49,732 nt of DNA from Lachnospiraceae bacterium (lineage in GTDB: Bacteria > Bacillota > Clostridia > Lachnospirales > Lachnospiraceae). Every line of letters begins with the position of its first letter. Position 1 is the stretch's first letter. The translations under genes were made by a program, and so were the position numbers. Positions 1,377 through 17,032 of the stretch are shown piece after piece. The notes below the pieces were generated by a model that saw only the letters and a list, made by a program, of their open reading frames with translations, made no database searches and had not been told where the DNA came from. The stretch covers positions 1 to 49,732 of the forward strand of contig JAGCUO010000068.1 of assembly GCA_017962825.1 (NCBI GenBank). Direction: 5' to 3'.

Positions 1377-1385
1377 ATCAGTGGA

Positions 1386-1730: not shown

Positions 1731-1731
1731 A

Positions 1732-2436
1732 ATGCTTATTAACGTTGCAATTTGTGATGATGAAAAGATAGTAAGTGATGATCTTCGTTCCAAGATCACA
1801 CGGATTCGAAGCGATTATTGCATTGATATATATAACAAAAGTGGGGATATCTTAGGCAAAGCCGATAAGTATGATATTATTTTCCTTGATATAGAAATGC
1901 CGGAAATAGACGGAATGAATCTATCCGTTATGCTAAGAGATCAGGGTTACAGAGGCTTTATAGTATTTCTGACCAGTCATATGGAGTTCATGCAAAAAGC
2001 CTTCAAGGTTAAGGCATTCCGATACCTTGGAAAGCCGGTTAATCCTGAGGAGCTGGAAGAGACTATTAACGGTGCCGAGAAGGAAATTCTTGGCAGGAAG
2101 AGCATAGTCATTTCCGATTACGGTGCGGATCGTAAGATATTTGCAGAAGATATCTTTTACCTGAAAGCAGACGGCAATAATACGATCATAAGGCTTGAAA
2201 AGGAGAAGATAACCACAGGTAAAACCCTGAAGTCTTTTCTGGATGATCTGGGTACCTCGATGTTATATCAGGTGCACAAGTCCTATGTAGTATCTTTCAA
2301 GCATATGAAGATAATAGACGGAGATACCATATATTTCCAGGGGATTGATGATGAGATTCCTGTGGCCAGGAGAAGGATTCCTGCGGTAAAAAAGGCTTTT
2401 TATTCATTTGTTCGAGAAAATGCAAAACCTATATAG
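1732..2436 (+). CDS. LytTR-family response regulator
   Basis: A 234-aa transcription factor. The N-terminal receiver domain (about residues 1-120) shows the acidic pair D9-D10, the phosphoacceptor D53 in FLDIEMP, the switch Thr in FLTSH and the conserved lysine in YLGKPV. The C-terminal LytTR DNA-binding domain (about 135-230) has EDIFYLKADGNNT, QVHKSYVVSF and VARRRIPAVKKAF, as in AgrA/ComE-type activators. LytTR proteins bind two roughly 9-bp direct repeats spaced about two helical turns. Such a repeat occurs upstream of the precursor and of the 15-aa peptide gene. It is followed 10 bases later by its presumed kinase. Confidence 0.93.
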   Translation: MLINVAICDDEKIVSDDLRSKITRIRSDYCIDIYNKSGDILGKADKYDIIFLDIEMPEIDGMNLSVMLRDQGYRGFIVFLTSHMEFMQKAFKVKAFRYLGKPVNPEELEETINGAEKEILGRKSIVISDYGADRKIFAEDIFYLKADGNNTIIRLEKEKITTGKTLKSFLDDLGTSMLYQVHKSYVVSFKHMKIIDGDTIYFQGIDDEIPVARRRIPAVKKAFYSFVRENAKPI

Positions 2437-2446
2437 GTGAGGAGAG

Positions 2447-3712
2447 ATGAAGGAAGTATTTATTGGCGGGCTTTACTATGCCATTGAATTTTTGAAAGTA
2501 TGGCTGGTATCCCAGGGGATTTTTGGAATTAAGATCCGAAAGAGCATTCGTTACGGGTTCCTGCTATCACTGATCGTTATGGTGGTAAATCCCTGGTACG
2601 ATATCGTTAATGACAATCCCATCGTATACATGATCATCATGTATATAGCGTTCTTTCTTTCTCTTGAGAAGAAAAAGCACGTAGGCTGGATTATTGTCAT
2701 TAATATCGGTATATCCATTGTAGATGTTCTTATATCCTGTGTCGCGGTATTCTTTAATCCGTCATTTAAGGAAAGTATAGTTTCGGAACCTTTCCTGACG
2801 GTTACTTTTAATCTTCTTTCCTTTGGTATCTTTGCCCTTATTTATTTATACAAAAACAGGAAGATGCTGCATAAAGGGATTTCCCTTCCGACGGATGATG
2901 CTTTTATCTATATTGTTATATGCATTACTTTGCTGATACTGATTGCTCCGGTTCAGCTCAGGATCCTTGGCATGTTAAAGGAATGGAGCATGCTGTCATC
3001 TGTCTTATCGGGCATCTTGCTCATCTTCTCCGTAGTTATCCTTCGCATCAAAAGACAGCATGAGCTGATGCGAATGGAGAAGGATATGATGATGGAGGTA
3101 CTTGATACTCAAAAGAGATATTATCTGAATATGCTTAAGAACGAGGAAGAAACCAAGGCATTCAGACACGATATCAAGGAGTATCTGTTCTGTATTCAGA
3201 CGCTTCATAACAATAAACAGTACGATCAGCTGGATAACTACCTGCAGCAGATGATGGACCGTGCGGAAGGATTTAGTCCTCGTTTTTCTACGGGAAATGA
3301 TTATGTGAACATGATCCTTAATGACATGGTTTCCCAATATGAAGATGTTAATATTGAACTTAACGGTAAATTTCCTCCGATCAAACTGGAGGATATAGAT
3401 GTTTGTTCTTTATTCTATAATCTGCTGAAGAATTCGTTTGAAGCCGTTCAGGAAGTTGATAATAAAGAGATCAGGATGAACATAAAGCTTCAGGGGCTTA
3501 ATCTGATCGTAGAACTGATCAATCCATATAATCATATCTCTCTTGATGGGAAGGGCGGTTATAAAACTACCAAAGAAGGTAAAAACCACGGATATGGTCT
3601 GAAGAATATCAAAAGGTGTATCAAGAAATACAATGGTGAGTATACAGCCAGTTCCAAGGATGGAGTATTCAGGACAGAAATCCTCTTACCTGACGCAATA
3701 GTTAATACTTAA
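2447..3712 (+). CDS. AgrC-like (HPK10) sensor histidine kinase
   Basis: A 421-aa membrane kinase. Residues 1 to about 205 contain roughly six hydrophobic helices, the usual AgrC/ComD peptide-sensing module. A cytoplasmic linker leads to the phosphoacceptor His241 in FRHDIKEY. It is followed by a GHKL ATPase with the N-box NLLKNSFEAV (about residue 325) and a G-box HGYGLKNIK near the end. Kinases of this class usually detect a secreted peptide and phosphorylate the adjacent LytTR regulator. No AgrB-type processing protease is nearby, so the ligand is not obvious; the 15-aa peptide at 16879 is one candidate. The gene begins after GTGAGGAGAG and ends before a strong terminator. Confidence 0.93.
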   Translation: MKEVFIGGLYYAIEFLKVWLVSQGIFGIKIRKSIRYGFLLSLIVMVVNPWYDIVNDNPIVYMIIMYIAFFLSLEKKKHVGWIIVINIGISIVDVLISCVAVFFNPSFKESIVSEPFLTVTFNLLSFGIFALIYLYKNRKMLHKGISLPTDDAFIYIVICITLLILIAPVQLRILGMLKEWSMLSSVLSGILLIFSVVILRIKRQHELMRMEKDMMMEVLDTQKRYYLNMLKNEEETKAFRHDIKEYLFCIQTLHNNKQYDQLDNYLQQMMDRAEGFSPRFSTGNDYVNMILNDMVSQYEDVNIELNGKFPPIKLEDIDVCSLFYNLLKNSFEAVQEVDNKEIRMNIKLQGLNLIVELINPYNHISLDGKGGYKTTKEGKNHGYGLKNIKRCIKKYNGEYTASSKDGVFRTEILLPDAIVNT

Positions 3713-3728
3713 GATCGGAGTGACAAAA

Positions 3729-3764
3729 AACTGCTTTACAGTTTGACTGTAAAGCAGTTTTTTT
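3729..3764 (+). terminator. Rho-independent terminator after the kinase gene
   Basis: An 11-bp perfect stem (CTGCTTTACAG / CTGTAAAGCAG) with a short TTTGA loop is followed by seven T. It insulates the signalling operon from the precursor promoter just downstream. Confidence 0.93.
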
Positions 3765-3779
3765 GTTGTTCTGATGAAC

Positions 3780-3831
3780 GGTATAAAACTCGTGATGAGT
3801 GGCATTGAGACGTGATTATGCGGATGATACT
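3780..3831 (+). promoter_or_regulatory. LytTR-type promoter of the thiopeptide precursor
   Basis: GGTATAAA at 3780 and GTGATGAGTGGCATT ending at 3806 form a block. Within it GGTAT (3780) and GGCAT (3801) are a direct repeat 21 bp apart, about two helical turns, as LytTR regulators require. The presumed -10 GATACT starts at 3826, 46 bp from the start of the block. The -35 region is poor, so activator dependence is expected. The block at 16797 matches at 23 of 27 positions with exactly the same 46-bp distance. The leader downstream contains the inverted repeat AATCGAT-aaa-ATCGATT (3853-3869). Confidence 0.72.
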
Positions 3832-3900
3832 GTTTATATGTAAGATCGACAGAATCGATAAAATCGATTTATTCAAAATACAAATCAGGAGGAATTTTTT

Positions 3901-4056
3901 ATGGAAAACAACAAGAATGAACTTTTCGAAGGTTTTGAAGAAGTAGAAGTACTCGAAGTTAATGAAGCTACCGCACTTCCCGAGACCGGCGCATCCAGCG
4001 TTGTAAGCTCTTGCCAGAGCAGCTCTTGCTGCGGATCATCTTCTTGCTGCGGCTAA
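3901..4056 (+). CDS. Thiopeptide precursor peptide (lactazole-like)
   Basis: A 51-aa peptide with an excellent ribosome site (AGGAGG, 8 bases upstream). The acidic leader (residues 1-31) contains LFEGFEEVEVLEV and ends in ALPETGA, the usual thiopeptide cleavage context (compare ALPENGA of lactazole LazA as I remember it). The predicted 20-residue core starts at Ser32 and reads SSVVSSCQ, then SSSCCG twice: ten Ser, five Cys and no Thr. Cysteines would become thiazoles, some serines dehydroalanines or oxazoles. Ser1 and a core serine near position 11 could form the central pyridine. The core departs from the classical S-C-x-x-C pattern. It is alone between its promoter and two hairpins, then the LanB gene. 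Confidence 0.9.
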   Translation: MENNKNELFEGFEEVEVLEVNEATALPETGASSVVSSCQSSSCCGSSSCCG

Positions 4057-4123
4057 TATAGTTTCTGTAATCATTTAATTTCTTTTCACCTAACTTATTT
4101 GAATAAATCGTTTTATAGATCCG

Positions 4124-4173
4124 GCCAAAAAACTTTTGGCTGTAAAGCGCCTGTACCGCACATGCGGTACAGG
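4124..4173 (+). other. Two consecutive intercistronic hairpins after the precursor gene
   Basis: The first is GCCAAAA-aac-TTTTGGC (4124-4140). The second, stronger one is CCTGTACCGC-acat-GCGGTACAGG (4150-4173), a perfect 10-bp stem without a following T-run. Between a precursor and its modifying enzymes such structures usually stabilise the upstream message or permit partial read-through, giving more precursor than enzyme. They are not typical full terminators. Confidence 0.7.
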
Positions 4174-4217
4174 TAATCTGTACCAAGCATCAGTACCTTG
4201 ATCCGGGAGAGTAAGAG

Positions 4218-6797
4218 ATGAAATATGTTGAATTACCGCTTTTGATGGTAAGAGAAAACAGTGTTAAAACCGGCAATCTTTACAAAATGCAGGCTGAGAA
4301 AACTATTTCAGCTTATTTTGATTATTTGAAAAATACTGACATATTTAACGAAAGCTCGGAGAAGATTACGGATGAGATTGAAAGATGCGTTAAGAAATAC
4401 TATGACGATAATCAGGCCGACTGTAAGAAACTCATAGAGTTAAAACGAGATATTTTTAACAAAAGATACACAAGGTTAGATAAATATAAGTATTTGCTTG
4501 ATAAGTTCGAAGGCCTGGACGAGACGAAAGATTACTTCATCAAATACGAGACTCTCGTAAAGATGAGGAATGATATAAAGGTTTTCTATGATGAGGAATA
4601 TAACAGGGCACGTCAGATCCTTTGGGATGAGTGGAACAGTATATCAAACCTTACGTGTGGACTGATCAATTACGAAGAAAACCTCTTTAATAAATTAAAA
4701 GACTATCTGGCTAAACCTTCTTCCGGTCATAATAACAAGATCAAAAAGCTCGACAATACACTTTTAAAAATCTATACAAGAGCGGTCTTAAAACCCAGTC
4801 CTTTTTCTACCTTTTGCGGAATAAGGATGGAAGTTGATGATATCGGAACAGAAGGGCCGGAATTCCGTAAAGAAAGCATCATTCAGATCAATTATGTTCA
4901 TGTATTAAGGATCTGGGAATTGCTCTCTCGTAGTGATGAGGTAAAAAAGAAACTTCATTACAGGATCAATTATTCCATGAGAAAAGATGGTGATTCCTAT
5001 TCGGTATCAAAGCTCCTTGATATGTCGGAAGAGAACGGGAAATTATATGAGGGAAAAACAATCCTTGTCAGGATCTCCGAAAGTGCATTGCTTAACAAGC
5101 TGTATGAACTGAGGAGCTTTAAAGGCACTTATTCGTACGATGAACTTCTTGAAAAGCTGGGCATGAACGGAAACGAAGAAGTGATCCCCTGCCTTGTAGA
5201 AAAAAAGCTCGTAGACGTCTGCGAAAAGCTTGATGAGATTCCCAAAGGAATCATTCCTTCCTTTATCAGGAAAATGGATGAATGGGGGCTCACAGGCATT
5301 GAACGTGTTAAGGAAGTTATTTCGGCATTTGAGAAGATTGATACAGACATAAGATCGGCAGCTTCCGAAACGGATTGGGAGAAGAGGAACAGACATCTGT
5401 CGATCGTGCGTCAGGATCTGGATGCTATCTATAAAAGCTTCGGAAGAGATAAATGGTGTGAGAAAAATCTGATATATGAGGACTATATATCCCATGAAAT
5501 CAGCAAGAGGGATTTTATTATATCAGGGGATAACAGGAAAACACTGGAACTCATTACACAGCTGAATCTTCTCTTTGATGTAAACGCCAGGACGCAGTCC
5601 ATGTTTGCCGAAAAGTTTATCGGCAAATACGGAAAAGAAAGCGTCCATACATCCGATCCTACTCTTATAAGCATGATAATCGATTCCAATAAGAATTATA
5701 ACTACATGTGGGACAATAACATGCTGGTTAAGAGCAGGGATGAAGATCCGGAGATCGTTAAGCGGATGGATGCTCTGAAAGCACGTGTGATCGATTATCT
5801 GAGAACTCAGGTTTCAGGCTGTGACAGCTGCTGCTTAAAGCTTGATACGGAATTTTTTAAAGGGGTTGTAAACGAAATACCTGAAGAGATAAAGAACCGC
5901 AAGAAATCCTTTGATTACTTCCTGCAACAGACTGAGGATGGCCTTGTTATCAATAATGTATATTCCGGCTACATGATGTATTACAGCAGATTCCTTCAGT
6001 ACTTTCCGGAACTGTGGACCAGTAATGAGTTTAATACCTATCTGGATACGGTCTTTGACGGAAGCGAAAAGGTCTGTGATATGCGTATAGCAAGCGGATT
6101 TAACGGAAATATCAGACCTCAGATAACGGAATATGAATTAATTCTTCCCTCTCAGCAAAATACACATGAGACATCTATAGATTACAGGGAATGTTATTAC
6201 AAATATGACGAATCGGAAAAGCGTGTAAAGCTTCATCATGACAGTATCGGAGATTTTACAACGATCTCAATGGGAAGTCTGATGCCGCTTTATCTTCCGG
6301 GTATCACCGGTCTTTTACACAGTATATTTGTAAACTCACTTGCTTTTAAGGATATTAATAAGCTCGAAATTAAAAAAGGGGAAGAAATAGTTCATTTTCC
6401 AAGAGTGTATATAGATGACATTGTAATCTGCAGACAAAGCTGGCGAATCCCCAATGCAACATTTGAACAGATAGTAGGCGGTGCTGAGGATGCCTGCGAG
6501 CTTTTCTGCAATATCAACAGATGGATCCGAGAGAGAAATATTCCTTCGAAAGTATTTGTCAGAAAAGATCTTCAGAAGGATATGTCGGAAATATTCCTGG
6601 GTAAAGCCGATGGAAAGAATCTTGATATGGCCGCAAGAAAACCTCAATTCATTGATTTCTGCAATCCGTTATCGATCCAGCTTCTTGTGAAGATGTGTTC
6701 GGACGGACATGATTTCATCGTGGAAGAGGCGTATCCCGATTATTCGGGTGATGACTGCTACGTCAGGGAAGGTGTATATGAACTGAGCTACGTATAA
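4218..6797 (+). CDS. Split LanB-type dehydratase, glutamylation subunit (TbtB/LazB-like)
   Basis: An 859-aa cytoplasmic enzyme of the lantibiotic dehydratase N-terminal family. These enzymes use glutamyl-tRNA(Glu) to glutamylate serine or threonine side chains of the precursor, the first half of dehydroalanine formation. The signature basic/proline segment IYTRAVLKPSPFSTFCGIR is near residues 186-204. The length fits a stand-alone glutamylation domain without the SpaB_C elimination domain, as in thiopeptide and goadsporin clusters. Elimination would be done by the protein at 12716. A GGGAG site lies 8 bases before the ATG. It is the first enzyme gene of a tightly packed operon running to 16784. 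Confidence 0.93.
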   Translation: MKYVELPLLMVRENSVKTGNLYKMQAEKTISAYFDYLKNTDIFNESSEKITDEIERCVKKYYDDNQADCKKLIELKRDIFNKRYTRLDKYKYLLDKFEGLDETKDYFIKYETLVKMRNDIKVFYDEEYNRARQILWDEWNSISNLTCGLINYEENLFNKLKDYLAKPSSGHNNKIKKLDNTLLKIYTRAVLKPSPFSTFCGIRMEVDDIGTEGPEFRKESIIQINYVHVLRIWELLSRSDEVKKKLHYRINYSMRKDGDSYSVSKLLDMSEENGKLYEGKTILVRISESALLNKLYELRSFKGTYSYDELLEKLGMNGNEEVIPCLVEKKLVDVCEKLDEIPKGIIPSFIRKMDEWGLTGIERVKEVISAFEKIDTDIRSAASETDWEKRNRHLSIVRQDLDAIYKSFGRDKWCEKNLIYEDYISHEISKRDFIISGDNRKTLELITQLNLLFDVNARTQSMFAEKFIGKYGKESVHTSDPTLISMIIDSNKNYNYMWDNNMLVKSRDEDPEIVKRMDALKARVIDYLRTQVSGCDSCCLKLDTEFFKGVVNEIPEEIKNRKKSFDYFLQQTEDGLVINNVYSGYMMYYSRFLQYFPELWTSNEFNTYLDTVFDGSEKVCDMRIASGFNGNIRPQITEYELILPSQQNTHETSIDYRECYYKYDESEKRVKLHHDSIGDFTTISMGSLMPLYLPGITGLLHSIFVNSLAFKDINKLEIKKGEEIVHFPRVYIDDIVICRQSWRIPNATFEQIVGGAEDACELFCNINRWIRERNIPSKVFVRKDLQKDMSEIFLGKADGKNLDMAARKPQFIDFCNPLSIQLLVKMCSDGHDFIVEEAYPDYSGDDCYVREGVYELSYV

Positions 6798-6807
6798 GGT
6801 GGATGGC

Positions 6808-7884
6808 ATGATAGAAAACAGATTACGTTTGTTTTATTACACAAAAGAAGATAATAAGCGGAAGCTGATGACCGCACTTTCCGAAATATTGTTAGATGAT
6901 AAGTATAAAGATATTGACTGGTATATCAAGCGTGACTGGAGATACGGGCCCAATATAGGTATCTATTCATATCCCAAAGAGGGAATGAAGGACCTTGAAA
7001 CAGAGTTCTATGAAGCTATTAAGACACGAGCAATGGACTTTTGGAAGAAAACAAGGTCGAAGGTAGAATGCCCCGATGAAGAAGTGTTAAAACAGCTTAA
7101 TCAGCTTGAAACAAACGGTGCTGAATCAGACGATTCATTCCTTCCGATCGAAAAGAATAAGACATGTAAGATCGATCAAGTTGAAGAAAAGCATATAGAC
7201 ATGTTCTCGGTAGAAGAAGAGTATAGCCTATACCGCATAAAGAGATGTGAAGTGGCTTGTCTGTTGCTCAGAACCATACGGGTATTAAACGGACTTGATG
7301 AAGCAGATCAATATAAGATGCTTGTCTGTATATATGCCAAACTTGCCGAGTGTTATCCGAACGCGGGACTTTTAAACGGTTGTATATCGTTCAAATCTCA
7401 CATAACGGGCTTTCTGGCCAATAAAGACAGAAGAGTCGGCGGCATAAAACTTCGATTCGAAAGTATTTATGATCAGATGAAACCCGGTCTGGAAGAACTT
7501 TACAGTAATGACTTTGTGATCGACGAGCAAAAGGAGCTGATAGAAGACTGGTCTGTGTTTTTCAGAAGTTTTATTGAATCAATTAAGTACGATGAAAAGA
7601 TCAAGAAAACCATTATGAAGAACGGAAAGTTTTCGGAAAAGTCCGTACAGGCATTACTTAATTATTCGGACTTTCATTACAAATGGGTCGGAAGAAAGAG
7701 CTTTACCGATTTTTTCTATTCCGATGCATTCTACAAATACAGGTTATCTGTTAATTTCTTCTATCTGCTACTGCCCACAATGGGAATAGGTCCCATCGGA
7801 AAACATCTGTGTTGCTATCTTGTCACCAGATTGGTTGAAGAAAGTAACGATATACGTCTGATGGATATGATTGCTGAAGCTTGA
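6808..7884 (+). CDS. SpaB_C-superfamily protein, probable pyridine synthase (TbtD/LazC-like)
   Basis: A 358-aa protein. The segment DWYIKRDWRYGPNIGIYS near residues 40-57 resembles the strand-loop of thiopeptide-type biosynthesis proteins. The C-terminal NFFYLLLPTMGIGPIGK fits the family's terminal helix. It is more divergent than the protein at 12716. In thiopeptide clusters the divergent copy is the [4+2] cycloaddition enzyme, which joins two dehydroalanines into the pyridine and releases the leader. Its position straight after the glutamylation gene matches lazC. ATG 6808 is preferred (GGTGG 5 bases upstream); GTG 6799 is an in-frame alternative. The role is inferred; an elimination role cannot be excluded. 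Confidence 0.72.
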   Translation: MIENRLRLFYYTKEDNKRKLMTALSEILLDDKYKDIDWYIKRDWRYGPNIGIYSYPKEGMKDLETEFYEAIKTRAMDFWKKTRSKVECPDEEVLKQLNQLETNGAESDDSFLPIEKNKTCKIDQVEEKHIDMFSVEEEYSLYRIKRCEVACLLLRTIRVLNGLDEADQYKMLVCIYAKLAECYPNAGLLNGCISFKSHITGFLANKDRRVGGIKLRFESIYDQMKPGLEELYSNDFVIDEQKELIEDWSVFFRSFIESIKYDEKIKKTIMKNGKFSEKSVQALLNYSDFHYKWVGRKSFTDFFYSDAFYKYRLSVNFFYLLLPTMGIGPIGKHLCCYLVTRLVEESNDIRLMDMIAEA

Positions 7885-7914
7885 TGAAAGATTGGTTATT
7901 TAAGAGGTGACAAA

Positions 7915-9384
7915 GTGTATCTTGTTTACAAGAATAACATCCAAATGTATCTGGTAAATGAAAACATTGTAATTAAGACATGGAATCGTTTCTTTACCCT
8001 GAAAGAAGACAAAGAAACTTTTGAGATGATCAAAAGAGTTATTAATGCCGTCAGGACTCCTGTCACATACGATAAGATCCTGAGCGCATTGGGTGATGAG
8101 AAGAAAAAGATCGACAAGGCGATTTCCGTCTTATTAAAGACCAATGTGATTATGGCAGCCGAGGATCCGTCACTTTTTGAAAACAAGTATTTATATCATT
8201 ACGAAAACCCGCTTTTGATCGTTGAGAATATGAAAAATAAGGCGGTGCAGGTAAAGGGTGTTCCCGAGGAAATCTGTAAGCTTTTGAAGGATGAGGGAAT
8301 GAAACTTTCCGATGAAGCAGGGGATTATGCTCTTGTATGGAACAGCGGATCGTTGGCGGATATCAGTGAGAGCGTTTTTGCAGGCAGAGCTGAGATGACA
8401 ATAGTCTGCGGTGTGGAAAACGGCACCTATTACATGATCATTGGAGATAAAAATACCAATGATATCAGAAAAGCCGGATATTATTTTAAAAATATAGAAT
8501 CTGAAAAGACCAATGACAATCAGAAGATAATCTTTAACGAAGTATTTGTTAATACCTGTATCAGGACTTTCTTCGCCGGCCGGGATTCCAATTTTATAAC
8601 CGTAAGTCCTGATCTGTCGGTTAAGAAAGAAACACTTAACTTTCTTCTGATCGAAGCTTCGAATAAAGAGAAGAAGATAACCGAAGATGTACTTTCCGGC
8701 GAGTCAAGGGAAGTCTCATATCCCGATTTTGATGTCTATGTTAATGATCTTCCCTTTGTAGGATATTTCGGAAGCATGAAACGGGATCAGTTCCCTGTCC
8801 CCAAGCAGGAGTTGTGGCTGATCGATAAGAGCGGGAATGTCACGGATAAGATTCTTTCCGCAGGTGATAAGTGTGAGACAGCAATGCTTAAATGCGCCGG
8901 AGATGCCTTGAATCGTTTTTTCGGAGAGAATTACCGAATATTCGACGATAAGAATACTTATTATTTCAATCTTCTGGCGGATAAGCTTTTCGAAACCGAT
9001 AATCTGCATTTCCCTTTGGAGTCGGGACTTGCCGAAGATGGAATTAAGATCAGTTGTTACATACACAGCATATTTAAGATCGGTAAGGTATTTGTCGGAA
9101 CCGGCGAAAAGAGAGTTTCTTTCAATAACTGCAGAGGAAATACTCTTAAGCAGGAAATCAGTTATGCACTGATCGAGATCGGATGTCCCGTTAACCGGGC
9201 CATTGATCTTTCGGAAAAGGTATCCGGATCTGTTACCGGATTAGATGAAGAACAGGATATCGAAGCACTGAATATGAGATTGTTGTCATACCTTACGGAT
9301 ATAGGCACAGGTGTTTACGAAGTATTTAATGAATACAGCGAGATGCTTCGAGAACAGGGCATATATCTGGGAAGACTTAAATAG
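7915..9384 (+). CDS. RRE/ocin-ThiF-like cyclodehydratase partner (LazD/TbtF-like)
   Basis: A 489-aa protein starting at GTG, with AGAGGTGA about 6 bases upstream. The N-terminal 80 residues look like a winged-helix recognition element (PVTYDKILSALGDEKKKIDKAISVLLKTN), the kind that binds RiPP leader peptides. The rest is weakly similar to ocin-ThiF-like proteins that present the precursor to the YcaO enzyme. No ATP-binding glycine loop and no CxxC zinc pairs are seen, so it is unlikely to be a catalytic E1. It lies directly upstream of the YcaO gene, as in laz and tbt clusters. The identification leans heavily on context. Confidence 0.65.
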   Translation: MYLVYKNNIQMYLVNENIVIKTWNRFFTLKEDKETFEMIKRVINAVRTPVTYDKILSALGDEKKKIDKAISVLLKTNVIMAAEDPSLFENKYLYHYENPLLIVENMKNKAVQVKGVPEEICKLLKDEGMKLSDEAGDYALVWNSGSLADISESVFAGRAEMTIVCGVENGTYYMIIGDKNTNDIRKAGYYFKNIESEKTNDNQKIIFNEVFVNTCIRTFFAGRDSNFITVSPDLSVKKETLNFLLIEASNKEKKITEDVLSGESREVSYPDFDVYVNDLPFVGYFGSMKRDQFPVPKQELWLIDKSGNVTDKILSAGDKCETAMLKCAGDALNRFFGENYRIFDDKNTYYFNLLADKLFETDNLHFPLESGLAEDGIKISCYIHSIFKIGKVFVGTGEKRVSFNNCRGNTLKQEISYALIEIGCPVNRAIDLSEKVSGSVTGLDEEQDIEALNMRLLSYLTDIGTGVYEVFNEYSEMLREQGIYLGRLK

Positions 9385-9391
9385 GAGAGTG

Positions 9392-11230
9392 ATGTTCCAA
9401 ATGTCTGGTAAGTATATAGATAAAAAGCAGCTGGATTGGGAAGGCCCCGTATTTATATCTTCTTATACCAAGGATTATTCCGATGAACTTATTGAGATGA
9501 TGGCGGGCGGAGAAGAAGTACTGCATATTCATTACGGATGTGATTATCTGGGGATCAGAATTGCAGGTACCTATAGTGATCAGGGTTGTTTTTACTGTTA
9601 CGAAAGACAATTTAATATAAACAATTCTCTCAGGATTGAAAAGTGTGAGTCATGCTTTTGCGAGGAAGGTGAGTTAAGCGATTCGCAAACGAGAGCACTG
9701 AATAGAATTGCCGGTGCGATAGTAAAGAGCCTGTCAGAGAACGAAGCAAACAGAAAATTCACATACTTCATCAGATATAAGGATTATTCCGTAAACAGGA
9801 TCAAGGTCAGGAAACTTGAAGACTGCAAATGCTGCGGATCCAAAGTCGATGATTATGCATGGATCCTCAATATGGATGAAGAGTTTTTTGAAGGTGAGGA
9901 CGGCTACAGAGTTCATAAAAATGTCAATTTGGATGCCATCAAGGATATGACATATAACAGAACTTCGGGACTGTTTCAGTACATATATAAGTATTACAGG
10001 AGTAATTACATTCCGATCATCTGCTCTGAGTTCAATGATGTTGTAACCGGAAGGAGGATAAGAAGCTTCGGAAGGAGTTTCAGTATGTCAGGGGTGGAAT
10101 CTTCTTCAATTCTTGAAGGCCTGGAGAGATATTCGGGAATGATCCCCCGAAAACGCCGCAGCATAGTACACGAAAGGTACAAGACGATTAAAGATACCGG
10201 GATCAATCCGGAGAAGTTTATTCTGAACACCGGACATGATATAGAAAAATTCGGACTCAAACGATACAGCTCTCAGAATAAATACAACTGGATATGGGCA
10301 TATTCATGGAATGATAAGAAGCCCGTTCTGATACCTGAACAAATTGCTTATTACGATGTAAATAAAGACTCTGCGGAAAAAAGATTCGTCTATGAAACCT
10401 CAAACGGAGCTTCCTTAGGCGGAAGCCGTCAGGAAGCAGTTTTATACGGTCTGTATGAGCTTATAGAAAGAGATGCATTTTTACTTGCCTGGTTTAACAG
10501 ATATAAGCCTGTAAAGATCTCTACAGAAAGTATCAGGAATGAAAAGATACTCGATACCATCCGCCTGGTTGAGATGAACGGATATAAGGTTCATATATTT
10601 GATATCACCACGGAAAACAGAGTTCCTGCGGTATGGGTGCTTCTGGAAAATCCCTCTCCGGATGCCGGGGTTAGAAGCTACTCTGCAGCAGGTGCACATA
10701 CCAATCCTTATAAGGCTATTGAAGGCGGTTTGGTAGAAGCAATAACTTCCATGCCGATATATGAAAGTATTCTTCCCGAGCAGGCAGAAAGGGCACATCT
10801 GTTAAATAGAGATTTTTCGCAGGTGACCATGATGGAAGATCACGTGCTTATGTACAGTGTTCCGGAATCCTTCGAAAGACTCAGGTACCTGTTTGAGAAT
10901 GAGGTTTATAAGGACATAGATGAACTGTATCCGGAATGGGAAGAGGTAAAGGGAGAGAGGTCGCTTACCGTGATCTTAACTTCGATACTGGATCGGATCG
11001 CCCAATACCATCCCGATATCATATTTGTCGATCAGACTAATGATCTTATCGAAGGTCAAAATCTGTTCTGTGCAAAAGTGATCATTCCTACAATGCAGAA
11101 CATGTATTTCGGGGAACAGTTTAAGAGACTGAATGTAGAGCGTATACGATGGGGAGCAGTACAGGCAGGATGGAGAGATATACCGCTTGATGAAAAGGAT
11201 ATCAGTAATGTACCTCATCCGTTTCCTTAA
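9392..11230 (+). CDS. YcaO azoline-forming cyclodehydratase with Cys-rich N-terminal domain
   Basis: A 612-aa enzyme that uses ATP to cyclise Cys (and possibly Ser) of the core into azolines. YcaO ATP-binding signatures are GVESSSILEGLERYSG (from about residue 234) and ETSNGASLGGSRQE followed by LYELIERDAF (about 340-360). The protein ends in PHPFP, the C-terminal proline motif typical of azoline-forming YcaOs. The first 190 residues include GPVFISSY, GCFYCYER, CESCFC and CKCCGS, resembling the zinc-binding end of E1-like proteins, so this may be a reduced E1-YcaO fusion. ATG 9392 (4 bases after AGGAG) or ATG 9401 may be the start. It overlaps no neighbour and follows the RRE gene by 7 bases. 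Confidence 0.92.
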   Translation: MFQMSGKYIDKKQLDWEGPVFISSYTKDYSDELIEMMAGGEEVLHIHYGCDYLGIRIAGTYSDQGCFYCYERQFNINNSLRIEKCESCFCEEGELSDSQTRALNRIAGAIVKSLSENEANRKFTYFIRYKDYSVNRIKVRKLEDCKCCGSKVDDYAWILNMDEEFFEGEDGYRVHKNVNLDAIKDMTYNRTSGLFQYIYKYYRSNYIPIICSEFNDVVTGRRIRSFGRSFSMSGVESSSILEGLERYSGMIPRKRRSIVHERYKTIKDTGINPEKFILNTGHDIEKFGLKRYSSQNKYNWIWAYSWNDKKPVLIPEQIAYYDVNKDSAEKRFVYETSNGASLGGSRQEAVLYGLYELIERDAFLLAWFNRYKPVKISTESIRNEKILDTIRLVEMNGYKVHIFDITTENRVPAVWVLLENPSPDAGVRSYSAAGAHTNPYKAIEGGLVEAITSMPIYESILPEQAERAHLLNRDFSQVTMMEDHVLMYSVPESFERLRYLFENEVYKDIDELYPEWEEVKGERSLTVILTSILDRIAQYHPDIIFVDQTNDLIEGQNLFCAKVIIPTMQNMYFGEQFKRLNVERIRWGAVQAGWRDIPLDEKDISNVPHPFP

Positions 11231-11238
11231 AGGATGAA

Positions 11239-12723
11239 ATGATGAAAGATAGGATTACAGAACTTCTGGGTCAGGTTTCTTATAACAGATATGCTCTGGA
11301 GTACAAAAGGGATGATGATACATATGTATATCCGGTTATCACTCCGATGGACGGATGCGAGACGGAAGGGTTAAAACCGGGTTTTGATTATTTTAAGGAA
11401 AGTATGTATCCGCTTACCGAAAGATCATCCGAAACGGATCATCCGATCGAGGAGATTAGGGACTCCATCATACTCGGGACACACGGGATAACAAAGTATG
11501 AATACGATTCCCCATATAAGTTCCACAGACCTGTTCCTTCCGCAAGAGGGTTTCACCCTTGTGAATTATACATACTGTCGGAAGAAGGAGTTAAACGCTT
11601 TAATCCCGTGGAGAATGCTTACGATATTCTCGCTAAAAGTTCTAAGCAGCCCGGTGGTCATGAATTCGAGATTCTTGTTGCAGCCGATGATTGGAGACTG
11701 GGGAAGTACTATGGGAATTTTGCTTACGTTTTAAGTGCCCTTGATGCGGGGCACATAATCGGACAGATAAGCGTTCTTGCTTCCAAATACGGATGCTTTA
11801 CTCAGGTCTCATATGATGTTTCGACAGAGTATACAGATACTCTCTTCATTAAGTATTTAAAGGATCAGGGCCTTGTGGTATTTGCCGGTATAAAGGTCAG
11901 GAAGGATAAGAACTTTGGATCCGGTCTGTATGACTTTCCTGTTAGTGGCAGCAGAAGGATCCTGTACACAGAGCAGCGTAAGAAGCTTTTGCTGAGAAAT
12001 GAAATAGTGGAATTGCGTGAAGCCTGTGATGAGTCTCTTAATCCCAAGAGAATCCTTGCTCCGGAAAGCGACAAAGGGGACTTGGGAGAAATCCCGGGAA
12101 AAAGCATAGGTCATGTACTTAAGGAAAGAACATCGGCTCACAGTCACATCGGTTTAATGAGCATGGATGAGAGTGCAGGCCTTTCGGATAAGCTTGGAAG
12201 GACTGAGAAAGAACTGGCACATTATCTTAAGTTCAGCGGTATAGATAAATATACAAATATTTATATGTATCTAAACGCTGAAGACGTCGAATACGTCAGA
12301 GGCTATTACAAATACGACAACATTATAAAACGCTGGGTTAAAACCTGTGATGCGGATGACGGAGTTGCGGAATGGTACAGGATAATCCACGACAATCACG
12401 AGTTCCTGAATGTCGAAAGTATCCCGATGGTATTTTTCTCGAGTGCAAAGATAGATGTGATCGGAGAAGAATACGGAAACAGACTTATAGATGTCATGTA
12501 CATGCTTTCCGGAGAGATTGTACAGATAATATGTCTGCTCATGACCGGATTTGAATTCTTCTGCAGACCGATAAAGAACATTAACGAAGATAAGATCGAG
12601 GAAAAGCTTCGGATAAATAATTCAACCGAACGTATAACATATGCCGCACTTGCGGGTAAAGCAAACATTGTACAACGAGCTGCGGATACTTCGATATTTG
12701 ACGGGAGGCCCTTAAATGAATGA
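11239..12723 (+). CDS. Nitroreductase-fold azoline dehydrogenase (TbtE / LazF-dehydrogenase-like)
   Basis: A 494-aa protein, about twice the size of a single SagB-type domain. The first half carries the FMN-binding pattern RPVPSARGFHPCELYIL (about residues 96-112) and the helix ALDAGHIIGQISVLASKYG (about 167-185). The second half looks like a degenerate second nitroreductase domain. Such enzymes oxidise azolines to thiazoles or oxazoles using FMN. It begins 8 bases after the YcaO stop (two adjacent ATGs, 11239 or 11242) and its last 8 bases overlap the elimination gene. In lactazole, dehydrogenase and elimination functions are, as I recall, fused in LazF; here they are adjacent separate genes. 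Confidence 0.8.
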   Translation: MMKDRITELLGQVSYNRYALEYKRDDDTYVYPVITPMDGCETEGLKPGFDYFKESMYPLTERSSETDHPIEEIRDSIILGTHGITKYEYDSPYKFHRPVPSARGFHPCELYILSEEGVKRFNPVENAYDILAKSSKQPGGHEFEILVAADDWRLGKYYGNFAYVLSALDAGHIIGQISVLASKYGCFTQVSYDVSTEYTDTLFIKYLKDQGLVVFAGIKVRKDKNFGSGLYDFPVSGSRRILYTEQRKKLLLRNEIVELREACDESLNPKRILAPESDKGDLGEIPGKSIGHVLKERTSAHSHIGLMSMDESAGLSDKLGRTEKELAHYLKFSGIDKYTNIYMYLNAEDVEYVRGYYKYDNIIKRWVKTCDADDGVAEWYRIIHDNHEFLNVESIPMVFFSSAKIDVIGEEYGNRLIDVMYMLSGEIVQIICLLMTGFEFFCRPIKNINEDKIEEKLRINNSTERITYAALAGKANIVQRAADTSIFDGRPLNE

Positions 12724-13597
12724 ATGGCATTCTTACCACATATTCTTATTTGACGGTTTATTACAGGAAAAACTGATATGTGAATGCATCGCTCCTCTTA
12801 TGAAGGAATATCTGGAGAAAAAGGCGATTGAGAAGTGGTTCTTCATCAGATATTGGGAAGGCGGCCCCCATGTTCGTCTCAGATTCCTGGGAGGCGCAGA
12901 CGTAGAGGAGGAGATCACAGGCAGGATTAAACAGTTTGTCGATGAGAATAAGTCGGACCGCGTTCTTGCCAAAGAAGACTATTACAGGAACCATACTTTT
13001 GACGGAGAAGCCGTTGATAGAGATAAGCTCCCCTGGTACGAAAACAACAGCATTCATGCAATAGCTTATGAAAGGGAATATGAGAGATATGGCGGCGAGG
13101 TAACCATCCCTGTTTGTGAGAGTTTATTTATGAGCTCCAGTATTATGGCATCTGATCTGATTGCCGCTACAAGGAACAATATGGGACAGAGAATATCCAT
13201 AGCTCTTAACCTGGTAATAGTTTTCTTGTATGAGCTTGAGATAAAGCCCGAATATTTCTTCTTTTACTATAAAGATGTTTGGGACAAGTTTTTCAAATAT
13301 TCGGAGCTTGAAGGGAATTTCTTCGGAATTCTTAATGTCAGGAACCGTTTAAGCAGCATAGCGGAAGGGATGAGCAGTAACCCTCTATATGTTAAGTGGA
13401 TCGATATGATCTGCGGTGATGTTTCCACTCTGAAAGAAATATGGAAGGACAATCCCGAGAAGTTATATGGGATCGTAATATCCCTGGTACATATGTTTAA
13501 TAATCGTCTTGGGATAATCCCGGACATGGAGAGGCAGATATCTGCTCAGTTTACGAAGGAAGTTGAGGCAATGGGACATGCAATGGAGAATCGATAG
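12716..13597 (+). CDS. Thiopeptide-type SpaB_C protein, probable glutamate-elimination enzyme (TbtC-like)
   Basis: A 293-aa protein with clear SpaB_C/thiopeptide-domain marks: WHSYHIFLFDGLLQEKLI at the start, FFIRYWEGGPHVRLRF (about residues 42-57), EREYERYGG (about 118-126) and the terminal SLVHMFNNRLGI. These proteins remove glutamate from glutamylated Ser/Thr to leave dehydroalanine or dehydrobutyrine, completing the reaction begun by the LanB subunit. It is closer to the family consensus than the 6808 protein, hence the elimination assignment. GGGAGG lies 7 bases before the ATG, and the start overlaps the end of the dehydrogenase gene by 8 bases. Confidence 0.85.
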   Translation: MNEWHSYHIFLFDGLLQEKLICECIAPLMKEYLEKKAIEKWFFIRYWEGGPHVRLRFLGGADVEEEITGRIKQFVDENKSDRVLAKEDYYRNHTFDGEAVDRDKLPWYENNSIHAIAYEREYERYGGEVTIPVCESLFMSSSIMASDLIAATRNNMGQRISIALNLVIVFLYELEIKPEYFFFYYKDVWDKFFKYSELEGNFFGILNVRNRLSSIAEGMSSNPLYVKWIDMICGDVSTLKEIWKDNPEKLYGIVISLVHMFNNRLGIIPDMERQISAQFTKEVEAMGHAMENR

Positions 13598-13616
13598 AAG
13601 AGTCGCAGGTTCATAT

Positions 13617-14372
13617 ATGACCGATAAGATCTACCTTGCATATCACAGGGCTTCTATGATGGATGAGAAACTGGTATCGGTTCAGTCCCCCAATTCGGAG
13701 CAATATGTAGGACCTGTAGATCTTTCCGGATATGAATATATAGATCTTCCGGATATTCATGATATAGCAGATGACGCATGTGTTGATATCTTTGATGTAC
13801 TGAAAAATCGCAGGACTGTCAGATTATTTTCCAAAGACTATACCATGAGCTTTGAGGATTTTTGTAAATTCGTGCAGTTCAGCATGGGAAAGTCATTTGA
13901 AAATAACCACGACTGGACCTACAGAACATATCCTTCCGGCGGTTCCAGATATCCGGTTGATATATACGTTGTCCCGCAGAGGGTTGAGGGGCTGAAGGAA
14001 TTTGAAGTTTACAGACTCGATCAGCCCAATAACAGGCTCTATGACATGGGACGGACTGCCGGTAAGGAAGAGATCAAAAACGCAACATGTGCCACTAAGT
14101 ATGATTACCATGAATACATGGACAGTAATTTATTCATCTTTATGGTGTCTTCTTTTGAAAAAAGCACATGCAAGTACGGTCTTTTGGGATATAGGCTAAC
14201 CTTTCTTGAAGCCGGTCATATCGGGGAAAATCTTTCGCTTGTTGCAGAGAGAATGGGACTTGCAAGCGTACCATTGGGAGGCTTTTATGAAAGGAATATC
14301 AACTCTTTTCTGGGCGCGGATAAGTTTAATGAGACAACGCTTTACTATTATTTGGTAGGAGGGAAACGATGA
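13617..14372 (+). CDS. SagB-type FMN dehydrogenase (second azoline oxidase)
   Basis: A 251-aa nitroreductase-fold protein with a complete SagB pattern: NRRTVRLFSKDYTM, YPSGGSRYPVDIYVV, and GYRLTFLEAGHIGENLSLV continuing into MGLASVPLGGFYE. It should oxidise azolines to azoles. The cluster therefore encodes two dehydrogenases, this compact one and the double-size one at 11239. The start is uncertain: ATG 13617 is used here; ATG 13578 or TTG 13563 would overlap the upstream gene. It shares a 4-base ATGA overlap with the next gene, so the two are translated together. Confidence 0.9.
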   Translation: MTDKIYLAYHRASMMDEKLVSVQSPNSEQYVGPVDLSGYEYIDLPDIHDIADDACVDIFDVLKNRRTVRLFSKDYTMSFEDFCKFVQFSMGKSFENNHDWTYRTYPSGGSRYPVDIYVVPQRVEGLKEFEVYRLDQPNNRLYDMGRTAGKEEIKNATCATKYDYHEYMDSNLFIFMVSSFEKSTCKYGLLGYRLTFLEAGHIGENLSLVAERMGLASVPLGGFYERNINSFLGADKFNETTLYYYLVGGKR

Positions 14373-15295
14373 GTTATGTTTTCCTGAAAAAGCCATACGG
14401 GATCATAAGCGAAGATAACGAGGTTCAGATATACAATTACCTGACTCAGAGTATTGAAAAGACATATCGCTTTGCCGAGAAGGTCCCGAAAGGCTTCTTA
14501 AGCAGAGTGGCAATGTATCAGATAACAGATGCTGAAAAGCTCCTTTCAGAAAGCTCTGATTTTGAGAAAAGCTTCATCGCAAAACTGGTTAAGGAAAACA
14601 CATACGTTCATGTGGTAAATGAGATCACAGAAGAAATATCTCAGACCGAAACCATTATGTATGATGCGGATAAGATCGGAATGACTTACGCTAATTCCAA
14701 TGAAAAGAATGTAAGATACAAGGTTTATAAACATTTAAAGGACAATATGGAAAAGATCAGGATTGTAATAATCGGTTCGGGAATAATAAGTAACAAACTG
14801 GAAGGTGAATTAAAGTGTTTTCCTTTTAAAGAGATCATACATGTGGAGGATTGGTATGAATATAAGGGCGCTGATGAAGGTGTTAACCAAGTTCACTATA
14901 TCTATGTTAGCGATAGTAACGATATTGATAAGCTTTACGACTTTGGGAGATATATGGCTGAAGGGAAGAGAACGTGGAGCCTCGTTGGAGTAAGCAGCGA
15001 TAACCTGATCATAGGACCCACATTTTATCCCGGACAGGTCGGGTGCGTTAAGTGTGGATTTGATAAAGAGTTTTTTGATAATAAATACAATCCCACTTCA
15101 TACGAAGCAAGTATCATTGCAGGAATATTTGCAAGCGATCTTTCCAGGATCATCGGCGATATGCCGGATGCCATAGTTGAGGATATATCGGTAACCATTG
15201 GCAGGGCATTTTGCATAAACCGCAGGACCCTTAACGGGGAGAGCGTAAATCTGAAGTATGACAGTAACTGTGATATCTGTGGGATCGGTAAATAG
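14369..15295 (+). CDS. E1/ThiF-like cyclodehydratase partner protein
   Basis: A 308-aa protein. Its central part has a Rossmann-like start (KIRIVIIGSGIISNKLEGEL, about residues 126-145). Then comes the zinc-site region GPTFYPGQVGCVKCGF and a terminal SNCDIC, giving the two CxxC pairs typical of TOMM E1-like proteins. Such proteins partner YcaO enzymes and often carry the leader-binding element. The cluster has another partner candidate at 7915 and Cys pairs inside the YcaO, so this is a second or divided E1 function. It overlaps the SagB-type gene by 4 bases. Confidence 0.78.
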   Translation: MSYVFLKKPYGIISEDNEVQIYNYLTQSIEKTYRFAEKVPKGFLSRVAMYQITDAEKLLSESSDFEKSFIAKLVKENTYVHVVNEITEEISQTETIMYDADKIGMTYANSNEKNVRYKVYKHLKDNMEKIRIVIIGSGIISNKLEGELKCFPFKEIIHVEDWYEYKGADEGVNQVHYIYVSDSNDIDKLYDFGRYMAEGKRTWSLVGVSSDNLIIGPTFYPGQVGCVKCGFDKEFFDNKYNPTSYEASIIAGIFASDLSRIIGDMPDAIVEDISVTIGRAFCINRRTLNGESVNLKYDSNCDICGIGK

Positions 15296-15316
15296 TTTAT
15301 TAAAGGGATGAAGATT

Positions 15317-16036
15317 ATGAATGCGATCGAATTGAAAAACGTAACCAAAAGCTATCCTAATATTGTTGCGGTAAGTGATGTGTCTTTTGACATTGCAGCC
15401 GGAAAAATCGTCGGGATCATCGGAGCTAACGGCGCCGGAAAAACAACAATGCTTGAAATGATGATGGGTATCCGCAAAGCCACCAAGGGCGAAATAAAAG
15501 TCCTGGGAATGGATATAGACAAAAATTGTCAGGACGTTAAAAGCAGAATCGGTGTTTTGCTACAGGAACAGTGTGTGTATAAGAATGCTAAGGTATCAGA
15601 ACTTTTCGAATTTTTCCATGACTTATATGAAAGTCCCCTGGATATAGATCAGGTTCTGGATATCGTAAATTTACAGGACTATAAAAAGGTCAGGGTAAAA
15701 AGACTATCCGGAGGATTAAAGCAGCGAGTTGCCTTAGGGATAGCTCTGATCAACAATCCCGACATCATCTTCCTGGATGAGCCAACAACCGGACTTGATC
15801 CTGAGGCAAGAAGAGCACTGTGGAAGGCAATCCTCAATTTTAAAAAGGATAACAAAACCGTTCTCCTGTCATCCCATTATATGGATGAAGTCCAGCGTTA
15901 CTGTGATGAGGTGATCATCGTAAAAGGCGGCAAAGTAATAAGGAAGAATACTCCCGATAATCTCGTGGATGAATTGGGAGAGGGCAAGACCATGGAAGAT
16001 GTATATATGTATCATGCGGTAGGGGAGGCAATGTAA
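15317..16036 (+). CDS. ABC transporter ATP-binding protein (thiopeptide export/immunity)
   Basis: A 239-aa nucleotide-binding subunit. It has Walker A GANGAGKTT (about residue 40), signature RLSGGLKQR (about 135), Walker B IIFLDEPTTGLDP (about 155-167) and the H-loop SSHYMDE. It is the CcmA/NatA type that pairs with ABC-2 permeases. ATG 15317 is preferred because AAAGGG lies 9 bases upstream; ATG 15308 touches that site. It lacks a C39 peptidase, in line with leader removal by the cycloaddition enzyme. Its permease follows 1 base after the stop. Confidence 0.93.
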   Translation: MNAIELKNVTKSYPNIVAVSDVSFDIAAGKIVGIIGANGAGKTTMLEMMMGIRKATKGEIKVLGMDIDKNCQDVKSRIGVLLQEQCVYKNAKVSELFEFFHDLYESPLDIDQVLDIVNLQDYKKVRVKRLSGGLKQRVALGIALINNPDIIFLDEPTTGLDPEARRALWKAILNFKKDNKTVLLSSHYMDEVQRYCDEVIIVKGGKVIRKNTPDNLVDELGEGKTMEDVYMYHAVGEAM

Positions 16037-16037
16037 T

Positions 16038-16784
16038 ATGACAAGATCAATGAAATCCTATCTTAAAATTGAATCCATTCTCTTTTTCAGAGAACCTCTT
16101 CAGGTAATCTTTTCATTCTTCTTCCCTGCCGTAATGTTTTCAATATTTGCTTCGGCTTTTTCGGGAAATCTGGAAGGGTCGGAAGAATACTTTAACGCAT
16201 ACATACCGGGATATTTTACAACCGTCATTTATATCGTATCCATGTTTATGATCGGATATCAGATGGTTGCCGATAAAGAAGAAGGCGTTTATAAGAGACT
16301 CAAAGTTACACCCTTTAATATCAAGGATATATATAAGAGCATGGTCCTTAAGTCGGTCGTCCTTTGCACCATAGGAGGCCTGGAGGTTGTTCTCTTGGGT
16401 AAATTCGTATATCATGCCGAACTGACTACTCATTGGGGACAGTTCATAGCTGCATTTATCATAGGAAATGTTGTTGCCGTATGTTCGGGATTCGCAATCT
16501 TTGTACTTAGTAAAAGCTCAAAGCAGGCTTTGACGATCATCATCATTACTTTTTATCCCCTTGTCATGCTGGGAGATAATACATTTCCCCTGTCCATGAT
16601 GCCTGAATTTATCCGTAAGATTGCACCGATCATCGATCCTTTGTATCACCTTAACAGACTGATGAGGGGCGCCTGGGTCGGAGAACTTTTTTCCGAGAAG
16701 ATCAGTATCGTATACGTCTTCGTAACGATCATCGTTTTAGCCGGAATTTCCATAAAATACGATAAAACCGTTGATAATTTCTAA
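16038..16784 (+). CDS. ABC-2 type transporter permease
   Basis: A 248-aa membrane protein with about six hydrophobic segments, the first being PLQVIFSFFFPAVMFSIFASAF and the last near the C-terminus (IVYVFVTIIVLAGI). The ADKEEGVYKRLKVTP segment between helices two and three is a usual ABC-2 permease loop. GGGGAGG lies 8 bases before the ATG. With the preceding ATPase it would export the mature thiopeptide or give self-protection. It is the last gene of the operon that starts at 4218. No obvious resistance gene such as an L11 copy or an rRNA methylase is present. Confidence 0.9.
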   Translation: MTRSMKSYLKIESILFFREPLQVIFSFFFPAVMFSIFASAFSGNLEGSEEYFNAYIPGYFTTVIYIVSMFMIGYQMVADKEEGVYKRLKVTPFNIKDIYKSMVLKSVVLCTIGGLEVVLLGKFVYHAELTTHWGQFIAAFIIGNVVAVCSGFAIFVLSKSSKQALTIIIITFYPLVMLGDNTFPLSMMPEFIRKIAPIIDPLYHLNRLMRGAWVGELFSEKISIVYVFVTIIVLAGISIKYDKTVDNF

Positions 16785-16796
16785 AAAATGATATGC

Positions 16797-16848
16797 GGTA
16801 TAAATTTGGTGATGAGTGGTATTTATATACGCGTATTTAACTGATACG
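16797..16848 (+). promoter_or_regulatory. LytTR-type promoter of the 15-aa peptide gene
   Basis: GGTATAAA (16797) and GTGATGAGTGGTATT (ending 16823) repeat the element at 3780 with 4 mismatches in 27. GGTAT occurs at 16797 and 16818, 21 bp apart. The presumed -10 starts at GATAC 16843, 46 bp from the block start, exactly as at the precursor promoter. Between block and -10 the two sequences have diverged, so the conserved parts are probably under selection as the regulator site. Confidence 0.72.
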
Positions 16849-16878
16849 ATAAAGAAAAAAAAGAAAGGAGATTCCGAC

Positions 16879-16926
16879 ATGTACGTAGTCTGCGATGTAA
16901 GATGGATATGGTATTGGTGGGGCTGA
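16879..16926 (+). CDS. 15-aa Trp-rich peptide, co-regulated with the thiopeptide
   Basis: The frame encodes MYVVCDVRWIWYWWG: one Cys, two Tyr and four Trp in the last seven residues. AAAGGAG lies 8 bases upstream of the ATG. It has its own promoter, of the same kind as the thiopeptide precursor promoter, and a terminator 37 bases after its stop, so it is a complete one-gene transcription unit. It is not homologous to anything I can name. Possibilities are a leaderless pheromone for the AgrC-like kinase (Trp-Trp motifs occur in streptococcal ComS/XIP-type pheromones), a second product, or a membrane-active peptide. A Trp-operon leader is unlikely, as no antiterminator pairing or trp gene is seen. 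Confidence 0.6.
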   Translation: MYVVCDVRWIWYWWG

Positions 16927-16963
16927 TAAGCCGGACATGGTTCTGCATTGGTGGAACAAATCG

Positions 16964-17002
16964 AATCCGTTAACTTTCTATTGGGAAGTTAACGGATTTT
17001 TT
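16964..17002 (+). terminator. Terminator after the 15-aa peptide gene
   Basis: A perfect 13-bp stem, AATCCGTTAACTT / AAGTTAACGGATT, with a 9-base loop leads into a run of six T (16997-17002). It closes the RiPP region and separates it from the SNF2 gene. Confidence 0.92.
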
Positions 17003-17032
17003 GATATTATTGGGTCATCCGGTGGAGATAGT

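Follow-up and report, generated by a model that had tools for sequence, protein, structure and literature searches.

What does a thiopeptide-like gene cluster make when its gene order recalls lactazole biosynthesis and its host is a clostridium of gut or rumen type, and does the product belong with the lactazoles at all? Most of the thiopeptides that have been characterised are products of actinomycetes and Bacillales. The cluster considered here lies on contig JAGCUO010000068.1 of a Lachnospiraceae bacterium (assembly GCA_017962825.1), and the whole stretch of 49,732 nucleotides that was analysed is called the window below. Thirteen genes, all on the forward strand, occupy positions 1732-16784: a response regulator, a sensor kinase, A, B, C, D, E, F1, F2, F3 and G, and the ATPase and permease of an ATP-binding cassette (ABC) exporter. 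From 3901 to 16784 they form an intact thiopeptide cluster in which every gene is open, at approximately the coordinates given in a preliminary description of this DNA, and that description's view of the cluster as complete has held up. Read from its genes, the cluster very likely makes and exports a thiopeptide, a macrocyclic peptide of a class to which antibiotics belong. It is a known kind of system, and its core peptide looks new.

Gene set and precursor peptide

The thiopeptide assignment rests on profile matches, on the similarity of one protein to PbtD and TbtD, and on the presence of a C-type gene at 28 further, distinct loci. Relatives were drawn from a scan of 84,980 species genomes with a YcaO alignment, and all statements about them refer to the best 80 of 492 loci; together with genomes G131 and G512 these gave 29 loci with a C-type gene, one Hathewaya contig being present twice, hence the 28. 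The window encodes a YcaO protein and azoline dehydrogenase (PF02624, TIGR03604 and TIGR03605), a LanB split into B, which matches PF04738, and F2, which matches PF14028 and TIGR03891, a [4+2] pyridine synthase (C, matched by NF045556 and by PbtD and TbtD of the PDB, with conserved key residues) and a precursor with a leader and a Cys/Ser/Thr-rich core. The precursor gene A (3901..4056) encodes 51 residues. Its leader ends in ALPETGA and its core, (S)SVVSSCQSSSCCGSSSCCG, includes SCQSSSCC, both as originally described, and the peptide exceeds the curated cut-offs of three models: PF19409 (8.4e-14), NF033400 (1.1e-15) and TIGR03892 (1.3e-7).

The ring-forming step would fall to C (6799..7884, start uncertain), a divergent SpaB_C-type protein of the TbtD/PbtD/LazC kind. 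No relevant Pfam family matches it; NF045556 does (2.4e-24), as does PbtD in the PDB, at 2e-5 with the single sequence and at 3.5e-10 with a four-member profile. Its score of 86 bits lies below the 325-bit cut-off of NF045556, which is not decisive here, since lactazole-type C proteins, including that of Hamadaea (141-146 bits), and a micrococcin C protein (61 bits) fall below it too. An alignment of 22 C proteins has S200 and Y322 in every member, with F292, H293, R315 and N319 conserved almost as strictly. The equivalent of Tyr322 differs among three deposited PbtD sequences (Tyr, Phe and Ala), which we read as engineered active-site variants.

The remaining modification enzymes are recognisable to differing degrees. 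B (4218..6797), a predicted tRNA-Glu-dependent glutamylation enzyme corresponding to the N-terminal half of LanB and of LazB/TbtB type, matches Lant_dehydr_N (PF04738, 1.1e-10), and E (9311..11230), the YcaO cyclodehydratase, matches PF02624 (1.1e-62) and TIGR03604 (3.5e-82), ends in PHPFP and may truly start further downstream. F2 (12716..13597) is a SpaB_C protein predicted to eliminate glutamate (PF14028 1.7e-42, TIGR03891 2.1e-27), and F3 (13563..14372, start uncertain) is a SagB-type azoline dehydrogenase (TIGR03605 9.8e-31). F1 (11239..12723) is a second, TclN-like SagB-type dehydrogenase that matches TIGR03605 below its cut-off (4.7e-13) and reaches 95.9 % in hhalign against proteins in the TclN position of two plasmid clusters. 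G (14369..15295), an accessory protein with CxxC pairs, aligns with Bacillota G proteins (hhalign 97.1 %) and, below the cut-off, with TIGR03882, a model for the leader-binding proteins of thiazole/oxazole-modified microcins (1.5e-4). D (7915..9384), in the position of LazD, is presumably a leader-binding partner of the YcaO protein; it aligns with Bacillota D proteins (hhalign 92 %), has no Pfam family at E <= 1 and draws only two irrelevant NCBIfam models, weakly, so that its earlier designation as RRE/E1-like (RRE, recognition element of ribosomally synthesised and post-translationally modified peptides, or RiPPs) could not be confirmed. Profiles built from two or three relatives, with the window excluded, recovered nine of ten window proteins (B, C, E, F1, F2, F3, G, the ABC ATPase and the permease) and missed D.

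Several points weigh against the reading that the cluster makes and exports a thiopeptide. D is without a described family, B matches its Pfam model only moderately, and C, besides scoring below the equivalog cut-off, shares at most 24 % identity with the members of its tree other than the Pseudobutyrivibrio protein (46 %). For nine of the 28 other loci with a C gene, no precursor of the pattern turned up; the pattern search returned none in L049, L050, L054, L055, L058, L090, L103 and L106, some of which end at a contig edge. Finally, the metagenome-assembled genome (MAG) has a completeness of 81 %, and its left flank runs in the opposite orientation to that of a congener, which makes a join artefact at one border possible.

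Predicted pathway, ring closure and role

From these genes we infer the chemistry as follows. The LytTR/GHKL pair would activate the gene for A, whose leader would be bound by partner proteins (D, G or the N-terminal region of E), and E would convert core cysteines and some serines to azolines, which F1, F3 or both would oxidise to azoles. B would transfer glutamate from Glu-tRNA to remaining serines and F2 would eliminate it to leave dehydroalanine, after which C would combine two dehydroalanines into a pyridine by a formal [4+2] reaction, closing the ring and expelling the leader. LazB is reported to reject the tRNA-Glu and GluRS of E. coli (PMC7210931). The ABC ATPase (15308..16036; PF00005 4.7e-32) and the ABC-2 permease (16038..16784; PF01061 4.2e-15) would export the product.

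Which serines close the ring was approached through 19 precursors, that of the window and 18 others, whose first 20 core positions align with no gap when the residue that follows ETGA, ETAA or ETTA is taken as position 1. A precursor of the pattern came from 19 of the 28 distinct C-bearing loci, and 18 were used. Left out were L034 and L036, which lie on the contigs of L056 and L062; L094, whose core is the same as that of L095; extra copies within one locus; a second, shorter candidate of Hathewaya that has a different core; and a candidate of another pattern from Nonomuraea (L098). That second Hathewaya gene (L036, 19176-19334) is small and precursor-like, stands beside the main one and carries the core TTSGCSACSTCGSSIGY. 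Ser2, Ser11, Cys13, Ser15 and Ser17 are invariant in all 19 precursors and Cys18 is present in 18. Position 1 is Thr in four of them, which favours Ser2 as the first residue of the ring; Gly occupies position 3 in all precursors but that of the window, which has Val. Pyritides likewise begin with Ser-Gly, Gly2 having been kept in their variants (PMC9247985).

Two closures deserve to be weighed. The one we would tentatively put first, with slightly less than even confidence, joins Ser2 to Ser11 and gives a ten-residue, 26-membered ring with a nine-residue tail. The ring of micrococcin is also 26-membered. Closure between Ser2 and Ser17, at the second SSSCC repeat, is the less likely of the two and would enclose sixteen residues in a 44-membered ring with a short tail, larger than any natural thiopeptide ring known to us. 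Ser1-based or other rings take up the remaining probability. With five thiazoles, one pyridine, the leader lost, none to three oxazoles and a variable number of dehydroalanines, the calculated [M+H]+ would be about 1454-1586 for a core beginning at Ser2 and about 1523-1673 for one beginning at Ser1; the same formula yields 1143.21 for micrococcin P1. At the first site the residue before Ser11 is Ser, Thr or Cys in 17 of the 19 precursors, position 10 being Tyr in the other two. The closing site of lactazole requires Ser10, Ser11, Ser12 and Cys13 (PMC7210931), a pattern that Ser15-x-Ser17-Cys18 fits in 18 precursors (x = Ser, Thr or Cys), the nineteenth having Thr18. Either closure would be an unusual product, and were the 44-membered ring true, the whole group of Bacillota, proteobacterial and actinomycete precursors would constitute an uncharacterised large-ring class of thiopeptides. 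We found no characterised product for this precursor group, and the core string SSCQSSSCC of the window was absent from the papers searched, a search that left subscription literature mostly outside.

The product probably inhibits competing Gram-positive bacteria, and such compounds could shape competition within anaerobic gut communities; lactazole, the best-studied relative by gene order, is reportedly inactive. The strongest alternative, although an improbable one, is that the product is a signal and not an antibiotic, sensed by the Agr-type pair that adjoins the cluster. This pair consists of a LytTR response regulator (1732..2436; PF00072 1.2e-16, PF04397 4.7e-14) and a GHKL sensor kinase of AgrC type (2447..3712; PF14501 9e-20), the latter matching the AgrC model itself at 2.9e-6, far below its cut-off. 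Two-component control and an ABC exporter had both been described, and the genes are indeed there, the regulators just upstream of the stretch then delimited. A regulator or kinase resembling the pair occurs in 8 of the 28 distinct C-bearing loci, many of which are incomplete at their ends, and regulators similar to the LytTR protein (E <= 1e-4) in six. A signalling role would also suit the finding that, in the 13 genes at 1732-16784, Pfam and NCBIfam recognised neither an L11 copy nor a methyltransferase. However, Agr-type pairs control bacteriocins as well. Fecal extracts of mice carrying the Lachnospiraceae bacterium UBA3401, which has a thiopeptide cluster, suppressed growth of Clostridioides difficile, although the thiopeptide itself was not established as the cause (PMC11352710). 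In the frames at 1410-1541, 1545-1730 and 3812-3946 there was no family match (E <= 0.1), and no agrD-like gene was recognised.

Two candidate non-coding elements lie on either side of the precursor gene. Between the regulators and the precursor gene lies a terminator-like hairpin of 18 pairs with a T run (3725..3763, forward strand, from a consensus scan), which is no more than suggestive, since the scan returned 7 such sites in the region where chance alone would give 9.4. The A-B intergenic RNA (4057..4217, forward strand) is structured: the segment 4054-4220 folds at -45.1 kcal/mol (z -3.88), its main stem is without a T run, and it may act as an expression divider that keeps the precursor transcript above the enzyme transcript.

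Genomic setting and distribution

The cluster sits in an island of 15.7 kb (1370..17023) for which blastn found no match in the fetched stretches of the congeners G299 and G312. Positions 92-1369 and much of 17024-42401 match stretches of G299 (67-88 % over the longer pieces), with nothing between, and the GC content is 0.401 in the island against 0.431-0.449 in right-flank windows of the same length; the flanks on both sides are native to the genus. The left flank (1-1376) is inverted relative to G299, which places the island at a rearrangement border; the G299 gene next upstream of the helicase is common to G312. The island was probably gained horizontally, and an assembly join is a less likely alternative. 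At the borders, words shared between 1300-1760 and 16701-17000 were all of 8 bases or fewer, and no tRNA was found in the window.

The distribution was sampled at three levels, each count including the window's own genome. This YcaO protein was found in 1 of 31 genomes of the genus, that of the window. Among 299 sampled genomes of the family, five matched C (E <= 0.001), and three of these matches, in the window, G131 and G254, belong to full clusters. At the level of the class, 2 of 391 sampled genomes matched the pyridine-synthase model. A C-like match in G064, a 42-residue frame opposite other frames, was taken as chance. In the G131 cluster a second, shorter YcaO-like gene (548 residues; L033, 5448-7094) directly follows G, a gene that the window does not have and that may possibly encode an extra modification. 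G104, of the same family, carries LanB-, SpaB_C-, C- and SagB-like genes (L035, 2079-10194), its YcaO among the called frames being a C-terminal piece of 123 residues; this locus is only partly similar to the window and may represent a different type of RiPP or a cluster in decay.

The placement of the host in the Lachnospiraceae, proposed earlier, is likely and has indirect support from the nearest YcaO protein among the best 80 of 492 loci, that of a Pseudobutyrivibrio MAG, and from an HU protein encoded at 19318, which shares 81 and 79 % identity with those of two replicons of Butyrivibrio proteoclasticus, the top-ranking of the 2614 plasmid records that matched. Further along, consecutive genes at 22641-29211 encode a TIR-domain protein, a protein with leucine-rich repeats and a hybrid sensor kinase that contains receiver and Hpt domains; they are native, since they are matched in G299. 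At 46555-49682 two neighbouring genes each encode MutS domain V.

Comparison with known thiopeptide systems

Pseudobutyrivibrio, Ruminococcus, Hathewaya, Enterococcus and Lysinibacillus are among the genera with related operons, and clusters whose precursors show the same pattern are present in other Bacillota, two Gammaproteobacteria and one actinomycete. Close relatives were sought with C in genome contigs and plasmids and with E in phages, and none was found; a search with E in plasmids gave 92 records, all below 60 % identity. The closest relative is the Pseudobutyrivibrio sp. MAG RGIG7529 from water-buffalo omasum (L044, L147), which has the same genes from B through the permease, whole or partial, with identities over the matched parts of 51 % (B), 46 % (C), 30 % (D), 64 % (E), 46 % (F1), 51 % (F2), 59 % (F3), 39 % (G), 68 % (ABC ATPase) and 69 % (permease). 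Its cluster is split over two contigs, its B and E are incomplete, and its precursor gene was not found in that assembly. The Th1 cluster of Carnobacterium divergens (PMC7409045), whose product is uncharacterised too, has a core of related pattern, IPETTASSGSTSCSASSTCGSTSCCGSC, which recurs unchanged in Enterococcus termitis and Lysinibacillus and with one extra Gly in Hathewaya. The Enterococcus, Lysinibacillus and Hathewaya loci contain B to G, ABC ATPase and permease as does the window; unlike in the window, C precedes B and the ABC and permease genes precede D, and both core and leader differ. A complete operon in a clostridium of gut or rumen type, together with relatives that include rumen MAGs as well as named strains of Lysinibacillus, Enterococcus termitis and Hathewaya, opens access to the precursor group.

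A thiopeptide cluster is not new to the Lachnospiraceae, for one is already published in UBA3401 from mice, with a YcaO and an ABC transporter, and feces of mice carrying it protect against C. difficile (PMC11352710). By its description, the YcaO gene of UBA3401 lies at the cluster end, unlike that of the window, and the two hosts likely share a bacterial family. In published surveys, the Hungate1000 rumen collection holds eleven thiopeptide clusters by a broad rule (PMC13289728), a cluster was named in Clostridium cellulovorans in 2014 (PMC4289311), and lactazole-like clusters make up 251 of 508 annotated thiopeptide clusters (PMC7210931).

Whether the window belongs to that last group was addressed with the clusters of three Streptomyces plasmids, which have the precursor ALPENGASWGSCSCQGSSSCA and genes A-F in lactazole order and served for direct comparison of the enzymes. 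That the cluster is a true member of the lactazole family with a lactazole-like product is unlikely, slightly more so than the signalling role, and the evidence is divided. Order A-B-C-D-E-(F2F3) is shared, the leader ends in ALPETGA in the window and ALPENGA in the lactazole type, and, as had been proposed, the single fused protein LazF corresponds to two genes in the window, F2 (hhalign 99.8 %, residues 13-302) and F3 (98.6 %, 373-571) matching its N- and C-terminal halves. In hhalign, E also matches the LazE type (100 %), C the LazC type (96.7 %) and B the LazB type (92.2 %). D, in contrast, reaches 0.1 % against LazD, no higher than an unrelated control (0.2 %), and the window adds F1 and G, neither mentioned before: lactazole has no F1 or G, and F1 is without a separate counterpart in the three Streptomyces clusters. 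The cores also part company. Lactazole Trp2 is absent from the window, and Ser11-Cys12-Cys13 stands opposite lactazole Ser11-Ser12-Cys13, so that the serine at which lactazole closes its 32-membered ring, Ser12 (PMC7210931), the partner of Ser1 there, faces Cys12; the likeness to LazA that had been noted thus holds for the leader end and not for the ring-closing serine of the SCQ..SSSC motif.

The trees point the same way for E and are less clear for C. In a YcaO tree of 45 rows, rooted at its midpoint, the window and Pseudobutyrivibrio form a pair (100/100) within a Bacillota group of 27 rows (100/99), and the five lactazole-type rows form a separate group (100/100). A single clade of the window with those five is rejected by the approximately unbiased (AU) test (p 0.00068); one of the window with Pseudobutyrivibrio, G131, Gracilibacillus and R. 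flavefaciens gives p 0.066. In the C tree the window again pairs with Pseudobutyrivibrio (100/100), apart from the lactazole rows (100/98 among themselves), although constraining the window to one clade with those rows gives p 0.056, short of rejection, and the pair and the rows share a side of a weakly supported split (66/71); in a C tree that lacks the Pseudobutyrivibrio protein, the window is a long lone branch of unsupported position. Lactazole family membership is accordingly rejected on YcaO and on D, and not on C. The least credible alternative, a linear azole/dehydroalanine peptide of goadsporin type whose C has lost ring closure, could appeal to the strong divergence of C from all but the Pseudobutyrivibrio protein and to its score below the curated cut-off, but is very improbable given that C retains Ser200, Tyr322, Arg315, Asn319 and the FH pair and that the precursor pattern recurs in clusters with C scores as high as 278 bits.

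Membership of the micrococcin and thiocillin family is likewise rejected on YcaO, a single clade with the two micrococcin/lactocillin-like rows giving AU p 0.012. In the micrococcin-type cluster of Macrococcoides plasmid pBac115 (L127) the proteins in the TclN, TclL and TclM positions are related to F1, F2 and C of the window, and the ring-closing region reads C-S-C-C against S-S-C-C in the window; its leader is different, it has its own L11 copy, and its YcaO protein belongs to another group. As for lactazole, the statement that the locus works like lactazole biosynthesis stands, whereas the statement that it is a lactazole cluster fails on the YcaO protein, on D and on the fused LazF.

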